A stretch of DNA of 64,000 nt from Sipunculus nudus (lineage: Eukaryota; Annelida; Sipuncula; Golfingiida; Sipunculidae): positions 11,382,382-11,446,381 of the forward strand of contig CM049317.1 in NCBI GenBank assembly GCA_026874595.1. Reading direction: 5' to 3'. Positions 3,293 through 55,900 of this stretch are shown piece by piece. The notes below the pieces were generated by a model that worked only from the letters and a program-made list of their open reading frames with translations, did not search any database and was not told the origin of the DNA. Each line of letters begins with the position of its first letter. The first letter of the stretch is position 1. Position numbers and translations under genes: made by a program.

Positions 3293-4485
3293 AACTAGAT
3301 ATTTCTTTGCACCGCAGGTGCCAGAGTATCCCTAGACATAGTACGCCCCCCCCCCCACTTTAAGAATAGGCCCCCTTTTTTAGCAGCATATACTGACACT
3401 TGGCACCTTTGACCTTGTGACCTCAAAATTGATAGGGGTCTTTCACTCTTGGCAGGTGAACTATATGTGCAAGATGAAAGATCTGAGATGAATTGTTTGG
3501 CTAGAATTGCATCCACAATCTTTTTAAAGATGTGCCCTATGACCTTGACCTTTGACCTCATGACCCCAAAATCAATTGGAGTCTTGCTTTTTCAATGTGA
3601 CATATATAAGTCAAGTTTGAAATCAATACATCAATAAAAGCAGGAATTATCATCCAGAAACTAATTTTTTGACAGACAGCTCCTGTGGCCTTGACCTTTG
3701 GACCCCAAAATTGATATGGATCATCCACTATTGGCAAGTGAGCTATATATTCAAGATGGAAGACCTAGGATGAAAGTTTGGGTTAAAATGCATCCACAGT
3801 ATCTTTTAAGATGCGAGTCCAGTGACCTTGACCTTTGACCTCATGACCCTGGAACCTATAGGGTTCTTACTTTAGTGGTGGGCCATACAAAAGTCATGTT
3901 TGAAAATCCATTTGGCTATCAACACTGGAGATATCATAAGAGGTGCGTGATTTTCACCAAATATGGACACATTAAAGGTCAAGGCCACTCTCATGGTAAA
4001 GGTCATGACCCAAATGTAAATAGACCTCATCCCATCTCTCTACATGTGCATAATATGAAAGAAGTCTGTCCATTAGTTTTTGACTTATAATGCTTACAGT
4101 ACTGTCAAGTGGCAATTATGGGGGTATTTAAAGGCGTAAAAACAAGAAAAGGATTATAGGTGGCGCCACCAGTTTCCGGTAGGCTATCCAAGATCTTCGG
4201 TCACCTTGATTTTTGGACCAGTCCATGCAAGCTTACTTGAGATATTTAAGAATTTGTGTTATTTTCAACAAAAATGGACCTATTCAAGGTCAAGGTCACT
4301 CTCCTAGCATAGGTCATGACCCCATTTTTAATAGGCTTCCCCTTACCTATATCTATACAAATGTAAAGTTTGAAAAAGATCAGTGAAATTTTTTTTGAGT
4401 TATCCCGCTCACAAGGTTTTTCTGCGGCGGCGGTGGGACCGTCGTGAAACCATGGTATCCCGACTTTGTCTGGGGATACAATTAA
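3293..4485 (+). mobile_element. B-1: Helentron/HINE-like element, complete
   Basis: 5' AACTAG at 3293-3298, hairpin GCACC-GCA-GGTGC (3309-3321) and box GTATCCCTAGACA (3326-3338). The core has repeated TGACCTTGACCTTTGACC motifs. The 3' hairpin has arms GTATCCC (4455-4461) and GGGGATAC (4472-4479), then AATTAAACA. Non-coding: the open frames carrying VTLTFDL are translations of the repeated motif. B-2 is a second copy. Confidence 0.75.
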
Positions 4486-4489
4486 ACAT

Positions 4490-52900: not shown

Positions 52901-55900
52901 CAAATTTGAATGAAATTGGATAAAATTTAAGAAAGTTATCGGACAGAAACTAAAACCTGATGGATGGACAAACAGACAGATGGACAGACAGACAGACAAA
53001 TCCAAAACAATATCCCCGCATCCGCGGAGCAGAGGATAATAATTATGAACAGATTTTGATCATATATTTATGGAACAATAGCGTAACGCCCAAGAAATAA
53101 TCCATTAAATTTTATGTAATCTAGATTGACATTGCATGTTCTTATTTCAGAGGATTCCATACCACTGTGAGTTACTGTAAATTTCTTTGTCCTGGCCAAG
53201 GGTCAGAGCCATTCACTTGCATTAGGGCTTTTTTTGTTGTACAGCTAACCTGTGAACGGTGCTGATGAAACACTACACTAGGCCCGGAATACAGGATATA
53301 GCACATGGAACATCTCCTTGTACTGCTGGTGACACAAAATTTGTCACAATATAAGCTCAGCCAAATTTGGATTAGCTGCCTGTTTCTCATTTCAAGAATC
53401 ATTATATTACAAGTCCATGAATCTGTATATTTTTTATGTATATTTTTGGTAATTTCATATAAATTTCCAGGTAGAGACCGTATATTAAAGTCAATGGTTA
53501 AGGTTACAAAAGCAATAGATATGTTACGTACCTCAAAGAATTCATTCCACACAGGATTCACAGTATCCTTGATGACTTTTGTTTTGAACACATGAGCCCC
53601 AACTGAAAATAAATGATTATTCACCCTTAATTTCGTAAAACACAGAACAAGGAATGGCTGCTTATTCACTGGGCATCCATATCATACAGCATTGTAACTA
53701 GTGCATAACATAACTGAGGAAATCCAAAGATGACATCATAGTTTCTGACAAAATGCTATCATGCTTTCCCTGCCACCTAGTGGCAATAAGTGGTACTAAA
53801 AGACAACACCTGCTCATTTATGAAAATCAAGGAGAATGATTGATTCTGGCACCAAGTGCCCACAAAAAAAAACAAATATCTGTATTGTTAAATATTTAAA
53901 TACATCAAACATATATCAGGTGACCTTTCTCTCTCTACTTCAAGTATACAGGGCTCCCAAATGCCTCTTGAACAAATATAGCAATTTTATAACTTGACCT
54001 GCGACAAAAATAAAGGAATTCTCAGTGGAAATATTTTAAAAGTTTTAACAATTGTAGTTTACACAGTAAATAAACATGACCATCTAACAGCACCTGAAGG
54101 TCTGTTAATTGATTTTGATAACCACTTGCAATACTGCAACACTTACAGGTACAGTTCTACAATATAGCAGCTTTTTCAATAAAGGATGTTTATACAATTA
54201 TATTTATTCAGTCATAACAATTATACAGAAACATGATTGTGCAGTGAAAAGATATCGGAAACTATAAGCAATTATGGTCTAAATGTTTGAAAAAAAACCC
54301 AGGTAAATATAGGTGACAACTTTTCATAAGGAGTCATAAGCCCTAATTTATAAGGCAGTTAACCATTTTGCATCATCTGTAGCCAGGGGAGTAGAAAAAT
54401 CAGGCAAATCTTACATGTTTCTTATAAAGGTAATGTGTCATAATCACTACTCACTGTAAATTTTGCAGTAAGGGTCAGACTTGCCCTTTCCGAAAACTTT
54501 AATGTCAGCCGCCTTGAGTTCCCGAGCTGCTACTACTTGAAGACGGAGCACACCCTGTAAAAATACAAGTAGTAATAAACTGAGAGTCCTGAACAGAAAA
54601 GTGCTCAACAATATGGGCTGTGCTACTGCCCTGGACAGGTAGTTTTGCATTTTTGACAGTCTCAGACTGACTCTGATATATAGAATTGACAGCCTCCAGC
54701 TCATGTTGAGGGACTCACATACACTTTGTTATATTTGGTAACTGGTGATTATTTTTCAACAACCTCCAAGTTCATGCTATATATGCATGGAAAGAAAGAC
54801 CAACAACATCTTTTCATCATGATGCAGGGCTTACTCATGTGTGAGGGATGTGATGGTTCTCACACCCCATCCTAAGCTTATTCTGATTTTAGAAGTGTAT
54901 TTACTGCACCCCTATGCTACCTGAACTATATGCTATCTATGTTTATCTTATAAATTCCAAACTCTTAAAAAGTAGCAAATAAAATGTGTTTTTAGGGGAA
55001 GGACAGTTTTTTCCCTTTACAGAAAAAAACTGCCTCTGATTTGCACAACAAAACAACCAAGTTGAAAGGTTAATGTCAAGCCCTGTGGAAGTCACACTTG
55101 ATAGCACTTCTTAAACTCCAGAGAAAAGGACAGAATATAATGTTTATAGCTTATCCACCTAAAACCTTCCTGTCACAATCAGACTATTTTATGTTAAAGC
55201 ATAAGAACTGAGAGAATTTGTTGCTTGCTGCAATGTGTATTTTCTTCTACAGGGTTCCTGCACCTTTTCGCTAAGCAAATTTAAGACTTTATATGACCAG
55301 GTGACAGAAAATTTAAGACCATTTAATACATAAAATTCTTTAATGGCCCTACAGTTTTTTACAACTATTGAAGATTCCAACCTAGCATCTGTTGGACTTG
55401 GAGAAATTTATACTCCTGAAGTTTGTAGAGCCTTCATTTATAAGCTGAGGAGTTGTGTGAATCTACAGAGATCTTTCTTCAACAAGTAACTGCAGCAACT
55501 ATTCCAAAACTGTGTCAAGCTTACATTCAATCAGTGAACTGTTTGTGCAAATTGATTATATTAGGCTGGGTAAAATCAAATTTAAGACTTTTATAAGACC
55601 TATGTCAGGATTCCTGGCATTTTAAAGACCTTAACAATGCAAAAAAAAAAAAATAAGACTTTAAATTTAAGACTTTTTAAGGCCCCGCAGGAATCCAGTG
55701 TGCATACACAAAAACTTATGATCAAGCTAGGCAGTAGTCCTGTCATGAATCATAAATAAACAAGATTTCTTTTTACTTTTGTTTACCATAATAGTACATG
55801 ACTTGTTAAGTTTTTGTCTTGCATCACTGATTGTGCCTGGTGCAATATTATTTCTGTGTATAGGCATTTCCAAATGGTTGTGAAATGAAAACCTTGGCAG

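Follow-up and report, generated by a model that had tools for sequence, protein, structure and literature searches.

The repeats A to F of a 64-kb stretch of the Sipunculus nudus genome (hereafter the window, C12:11382382-11446381 of a 1.43-Gb assembly) are, judging from the arrangement of their ends, almost certainly several families of HINEs, the non-autonomous Helentrons, most of which would lie between the exons of a single extended-synaptotagmin-like gene on the minus strand. The plan of their ends is already known, and the elements of the window add new families to the known HINE group, the box that covaries at the two ends of each family being the published subterminal inverted repeat (subTIR). 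The lead that is worth following is the unexpected pattern of their orientation.

Inventory, nesting and insertion sites

The box words and the AACWAG sites were located, and ends were then sought on both strands. The limits of A, D and F were set by self-comparison of the window, independently of the boxes (A at 47806 and 49286; F from the match, in pieces, of 12999-15408 in F1 to 50439-52614 in F2; D, by homology, at 11546 and 21005 on one side and at 17644, 23586, 24562 and 38728 on the other), and those of C were set by the empty site in D2 versus D1, while the left ends of B1 and E were located with the aid of the box. The strands below give the true polarity, which is opposite to that of the initial annotation.

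1955..1994, minus: left (true 5') end of F3, a third F copy; 1562-1994 aligns with 14949-15405, and no right end was located within the window
3293..4484, minus: B1, subTIR GTATCCC(C/T)AGACA; end search, self-comparison and B copies
9877..10035, minus: C2-domain exon of the host gene (C2, 4.1e-10)
11546..17644, minus: D2, interrupted by C and F1; homology to D1
11963..12962 (ends to within a few nt), minus: C, within D2; empty site visible in D1
12999..~15405, minus: F1, within D2, internal A-type end at 13174; self-comparison
17896..20104, minus: E, box GCTTGCTGGAAAT, inverse ATTTCCGGCAAGC, 12/13 match; box and end search
21005..23586, minus: D1; end search and self-comparison
23922..24562, minus: D5, an incomplete D copy that retains its left end; end search and self-comparison
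24843..24874, minus: D6, lone D-type right end; end search
26331..27562, minus: A2; end search and self-comparison
34147..38728, minus: D4, interrupted by B2; two ends joined into one element by position only
34314..36437, minus: B2, left end not found; end search and self-comparison
47806..49286, minus: A1; end search, self-comparison and folding
~50440..52614, minus: F2, internal A-type end at 50614; aligns with F1 in pieces
52963..53045, minus: G, a weak candidate, possible left end only, with GATGGACAAACAGACA repeat and A/T-rich end
63328..63624, minus: exon of the extended-synaptotagmin-2-like host gene that encodes an SMP domain (SMP_LBD, 1.1e-12; extended synaptotagmin-2 match, 7.8e-11)

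Seven lineages had been proposed from the letters of the window, and six of them, A to F, stand with paired ends; the seventh, G, retains at most a left end at about 52963-53045, as no right end of it was recognised.

Several of the elements are nested, with C and F1 within D2 and B2 within D4. The alignment of D2 with D1 runs in three pieces (11546-11720 with 21005-21172, 15414-15740 with 21367-21711, and 16921-17644 with 22840-23586). Where C is removed, the joined flanks of D2 read as D1 (AAATATAA directly followed by AAAATAATAA), and, the A/T run aside, no duplication is seen; the best cut, which is tied with a neighbouring one, assigns the four bases that precede AACTAG to the insertion. 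The junction of F1 is ambiguous by several bases, and the alignments display the junctions of both C and F1 poorly. Of the two empty sites that make up the target check, that of C fits a T-rich insertion without duplication and that of F1 remains ambiguous.

A second kind of nesting is formed by A-type right ends, several of which are found within F and D elements, at a depth of about 170-190 nt (13174 in F1, 50614 in F2, the C12 flanks and a stretch of C1), and A inside D recurs in the flanks. Given that the A-type end stands at the same depth (~175 nt) in both F1 and F2, this composite moved as one, and the elements with an internal A-type end appear to be composites that multiplied as units.

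The ends and their kinship with known elements

In the initial annotation each element was read from an AACWAG start to a 3' hairpin. The layout of the ends holds and the polarity does not: published HINEs carry at their 5' end a subTIR with its complementary inverted repeat, commonly accompanied by a GTCY microsatellite, and at their 3' end a subTIR followed by a palindrome, which makes the elements of the window the reverse complement of that reading. AACWAG with its hairpin is thus the 3' end and becomes CTWG-TT, and the ACGG runs of the annotation become GTCC runs. In true polarity, an element would consist of a T-rich target, a few nucleotides, the 5' subTIR (inverted box) and its complementary inverted repeat, these last two being what had been called the 3' hairpin, followed, in several families, by a microsatellite of the GTCC type, and then by satellite-like core repeats, the 3' subTIR (box), a hairpin, CTWG and TT.

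The measured ends agree with this order. The inverted box lies 4-7 nt from the left end and the box 23-33 nt from the right end, with the hairpin in between, so that matching subterminal inverted repeats stand near both ends, as in HINEs. Words of the GGAC type precede the left end, i.e., a GTCY-type microsatellite lies on the 5' side, in C, D, F and possibly G, with A and B presenting GGC-rich stretches instead. The right ends, whose consensus had been taken as fixed, are less uniform than that, since CTAG or CTTG before TT, i.e., an exact AACWAG, is found in 11 of 14; A4 has AACCAG, and both F1 and F2 deviate. The right end is AACTAG in A, B and C, whose left end has AATTA, and AACAAG in D and E; five families are too few for a test of this association. 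AACWAG itself occurs 66 times on the plus strand of the window and 24 times on the minus strand, and the element ends together with the core array of E account for only part of these.

When 11 end stretches were folded as single-stranded DNA and compared with shuffles, hairpins stood out at the right ends of A (z -3.53), B (-3.51) and C (-3.65), and weakly at that of F (-1.87); the D and E right-end stretches as given folded no better than their shuffles (-0.07 and -0.42). Short stems are visible in these as well, and a stem separating the 3' subTIR from the end of the element can be seen in all of A to F. The hairpin of the left-end inverted repeat was recovered by folding in A (-4.25), B (-2.13), C (-4.05) and D (-4.62) and by reading in E; the left end of F folded no better than shuffles (0.02), and an inverted repeat complementary to the 5' subTIR is not supported in this family.

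The covariation of the box and its inverse was confirmed. Across 14 right and 12 left ends, the best complementary matches within families sum to 54.1, the first of all 720 possible assignments (next 50.0, mean 31.5), in a test that is not fully independent for B and E, whose left ends were found via the box. This covariation had been thought possibly new, and here the literature precedes it, given that subTIRs define families in PMC4067079, PMC2374699 and PMC7492417. Helentron families are defined by subTIRs of at least 11 bp that are identical within the family (PMC4067079), DINE-1 has five subTIRs among 11 Drosophila species, with three types in D. willistoni (PMC2374699), and 11 Cg_HINE elements are described in the oyster Crassostrea gigas (PMC7492417). 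We propose that the match between the boxes reflects their membership of the one end pair that is recognised in each family.

Nor do the boxes differ completely from one another, as had been stated, since GTATCC is common to A and B, and the right ends of A score on average 7.2 against the left end of B and 6.9 against their own. The box of B is longer than the GTATCCC first reported, at 13 nt (GTATCCCCAGACA). Among the 7 best-scoring of 40 scored loci, six of the seven further genomic copies of B carry both boxes, five of them found by script at 0-1 mismatch and one (L006) by reading, its hairpin carrying a deletion; the remaining copy (L003) gave no box by script, yet blastn matches the left end of B at 2261. 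With the copy of the window included, 7 of 8 present the 13-nt box with at most one mismatch at both ends.

This conservation bears on the suggestion that a single transposase reads the hairpins and tolerates any box provided that the pair matches, i.e., that it recognises structure more than sequence. In its favour are the matched pairs and the occurrence, within one window, of several boxes on a common plan. The boxes are, however, kept by sequence within the families (8,054 exact copies of the D left end, 7 of 8 copies of B), GTATCC is common to two of them, and one partner per family accounts for the pattern equally well, which leaves structure-led recognition very improbable and the suggestion unsupported. 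Cut-and-paste MITEs with terminal inverted repeats, unequal ends and target duplications are hardly credible, even though inverted repeats stand near both ends and DINE-1-like elements were formerly classed as MITEs (PMC4067079), given that the repeats are subterminal and asymmetric, only one of the two ends has a second hairpin external to the box, and the empty site of C has no duplication beyond the A/T run. Canonical Helitrons (5' TC, 3' CTRR, target between A and T) were also considered and rejected, with 11 of 14 right ends reading CTAG or CTTG before TT and the left ends starting with T-rich sequence instead of TC.

On the HINE reading, following the mechanism described in the literature, a partner Rep/helicase/endonuclease would recognise the ends of its family and nick the 5' end, one strand would be displaced until the 3' hairpin and CTWG bring this to a stop, and the displaced strand would join a T-rich target without target duplication. 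No open reading frame of more than 169 aa was listed in the window, in a list restricted to frames that do not run off its ends.

The Helentron/HINE lead of the initial annotation was right, and the layout agrees with all three of the papers above. The closest known systems include Cg_HINE (PMC7492417), which, compared by layout and not by sequence, has a 5' subTIR with a complementary inverted repeat and often a GTCC/GTCY microsatellite, satellite-like core repeats, a 3' subTIR with a palindrome, oligo-T insertion sites and several unrelated families per genome; it differs in that integration in both orientations is stated, and gene direction is not tested in the portions consulted. DINE-1 (PMC2374699) shares a 13-bp subTIR with a partial inverted repeat, a GTCY microsatellite, central repeats, a 3' stem-loop and a TT target, and its subTIR likewise varies between species and among the three D. 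willistoni types, although the subTIRs listed in the part consulted are only loosely like the A and B boxes and, by eye, unlike those of D, E and F. HINE-Mo and Helentron-Mo of mites (PMC4067079) have subTIRs near the 5' end, a 3' palindrome and families separated by subTIR, whereas the mite subTIRs are palindromic, lack the inverted repeat and are separated from the 3' end by 38-60 bp, against 23-33 nt in the window; this spacing is stated for the mite families rather than for HINEs and Helentrons in general. Helraiser, a canonical Helitron, is similar in its 3' hairpin near a CTAG end, which acts as terminator, with CTTG ends also known, and different in its 5' TC and its target between A and T, subTIRs being unnamed in the part of PMC4778049 consulted. 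The comparison also took in parts of PMC7992393 and PMC10294476.

A generic scan for AACWAG, a hairpin and a box with its inverse, which had been suggested for the genome, yielded 21 matches on the plus strand and one on the minus (0-17 in 100 one-strand shuffles). As only two of the 21 join true element ends (3293/4473 and 47806/49269), such a scan does not single out the elements. Three pattern scans against sequence collections from bacteria and viruses gave no match.

Orientation of the elements around the host gene and elsewhere

Ten minus-strand segments were scanned for domains, four of which gave a family match and six none; the matches are SMP_LBD (1.1e-12) and three C2, one of these below the curated cut-off. 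For the C2 exon at 9877, the best matches are synaptotagmins, with KIAA1228, which we take to be E-Syt2, at 1.3e-11. Since the exons between the C2 and SMP exons are not all mapped, an intronic position is presumed for the elements. A WDR60 gene lies in the right surroundings, on the plus strand.

All 26 ends detected in the window point the same way. Over 264 kb, 75 ends resembling A to F were counted (other families could differ), 47 plus and 28 minus, distributed as 17:3 in the left flank, 26:0 in the window and 4:25 in the right flank; in this count the ends of the window stand under plus, corresponding to minus in the true polarity of the list above. The 30 full elements of this region (18 plus and 12 minus, nested ones included) form four strand runs, so few being reached in 0 of 200,000 shuffles, and in 18 of 200,000 when the three A copies nested in D are left out. 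The strand is thus coherent over tens of kb, and it reverses on passing from the E-Syt-like gene, on the minus strand, to the WDR60 gene, on the plus strand. Two elements of the left flank (at -62 kb and -23.9 kb) are opposed to their neighbours. The GGAC-type microsatellite words, a partly independent marker, lie mostly on the same strands as the ends and are opposed at 4064, 6763 and 71878.

Between matched exons, every end runs along transcription in true polarity (23/23 in the E-Syt-like gene, 6/6 in WDR60), as do 25 of 25 in the wider interval of 100.7-145.2 kb, where the limits of the gene are putative. At C1:30.00-30.05 Mb, 15 of 15 ends point one way, all of them 3' of two minus-strand TAF3 exons, with none in the other 18 kb; the last TAF3 exon was not found, and the 15 ends are therefore presumed to be intronic. 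In a 20-kb stretch of C8 with no recognised gene, two C ends share a strand. Given coherence within each gene, the sense direction in three of three genes (E-Syt2-like, WDR60 and TAF3), whose limits are established only in part, has a chance of 1 in 8, which is weak evidence, and the sense bias is treated here as a lead and not as a result.

Genome-wide, the strands are balanced. The 22-nt left end of D occurs, as an exact copy, 4068 times forward and 3986 times in reverse (control 0), the left end of A 1756 and 1836 times, and that of F 133 and 147 times, too sparsely for a test of neighbours. For D, this test covered the first 100 of the 8,054 places, all on C1 (0.11-8.95 Mb), where adjacent strands agree in 78 of 99 cases (57.8 on average in shuffles, none of 20,000 reaching 78), i.e., in 16/17 below 5 kb, 30/34 at 5-30 kb, 17/25 at 30-100 kb and 15/23 beyond. 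A series of 35 consecutive exact D left ends on one strand occupies 1.04 Mb of this stretch (C1:110577-1149405), and could reflect either amplification in place or an orientation domain of unusual length. When the first 1.15 Mb is left out, the agreement among these same places is 44/64 (25 of 20,000 shuffles), with 9/10, 12/16, 10/17 and 13/21 at the four distances.

For A, no clear coherence was found among the first 100 of 3,592 places, adjacent strands agreeing in 56 of 99 cases (reached by 1996 of 20,000 shuffles) and in 8 of 14 within 20 kb. When the first 100 listed places of each family are compared, A agrees with the nearest D in 3/4 cases below 5 kb, 11/13 at 5-30 kb and 11/18 at 30-100 kb, and, past 1.15 Mb, 31 of 59 D and A pairs at 30-100 kb agree. 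Strand coherence is therefore strong around the window, present for D on the listed stretch of C1, and may not be general. A genic versus an intergenic position may be what separates the coherent from the mixed cases.

Explanations of the orientation

Segmental duplication was sought as a cause by comparing 57 flanks, taken from 24 of the 30 full elements on C12 and from 5 of the 7 on C1, and, although matches exist, no pair is alike at both flanks; it may apply to single pairs of elements.

One possible explanation, held tentatively, is selection within genes, by which insertion is unbiased and antisense copies, which harm transcripts through splicing or polyadenylation, are lost. This is consistent with the balanced strands of the genome and with the mixed A neighbours elsewhere on C1 (first 100 of 3,592), and strand biases of TEs in introns are known from mammals. 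The mammalian biases found in the literature search run, however, against the sense direction, and nearly complete purging would be needed, as all the ends detected between matched exons agree (23/23 and 6/6).

It is also conceivable, if rather doubtful, that HINEs in the introns of this genome are nearly all sense because their single-stranded intermediate enters the non-template strand opened by transcription, the copies outside genes being unbiased. Under this proposal, the strand of a rolling-circle transposon would record germline transcription. If the orientation pattern holds in annotated genes, the sites at which Helentrons insert, and the state of the DNA there, would become open to testing, given that movement as one strand can carry a strand preference. 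The nearest parallel found is that of the IS200/IS605 elements, single-strand movers that are oriented by replication (PMC5371812, consulted in part). No report of an orientation bias of Helitrons or HINEs was recognised in a search of titles and abstract openings, many subscription papers lying outside its scope.

Target composition alone, with T-tracts commoner on the sense strand, is improbable. The sense strands are indeed T-richer (AT skew of -0.043, -0.054 and -0.029 in three stretches), yet sense T-tracts exceed A-tracts by only 0.9 to 2.1-fold (lengths 3-6, three stretches, elements included), which looks too small for the observed orientation counts.

Other reading frames were observed around the window. 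The left flank (L010, L011, L017 and L018) presents several TRIM/NHL-like frames on the minus strand, of which that of L018 is a B-box with NHL by domain match and the rest were recognised by reading, as well as retroelement-like frames on the plus strand from L011:6849 to L012:1564, with a DUF1759 in L011. Beyond the WDR60 gene, an NWD1-like/WD40 frame of 1228 aa lies on the minus strand (L027:3048-6731).
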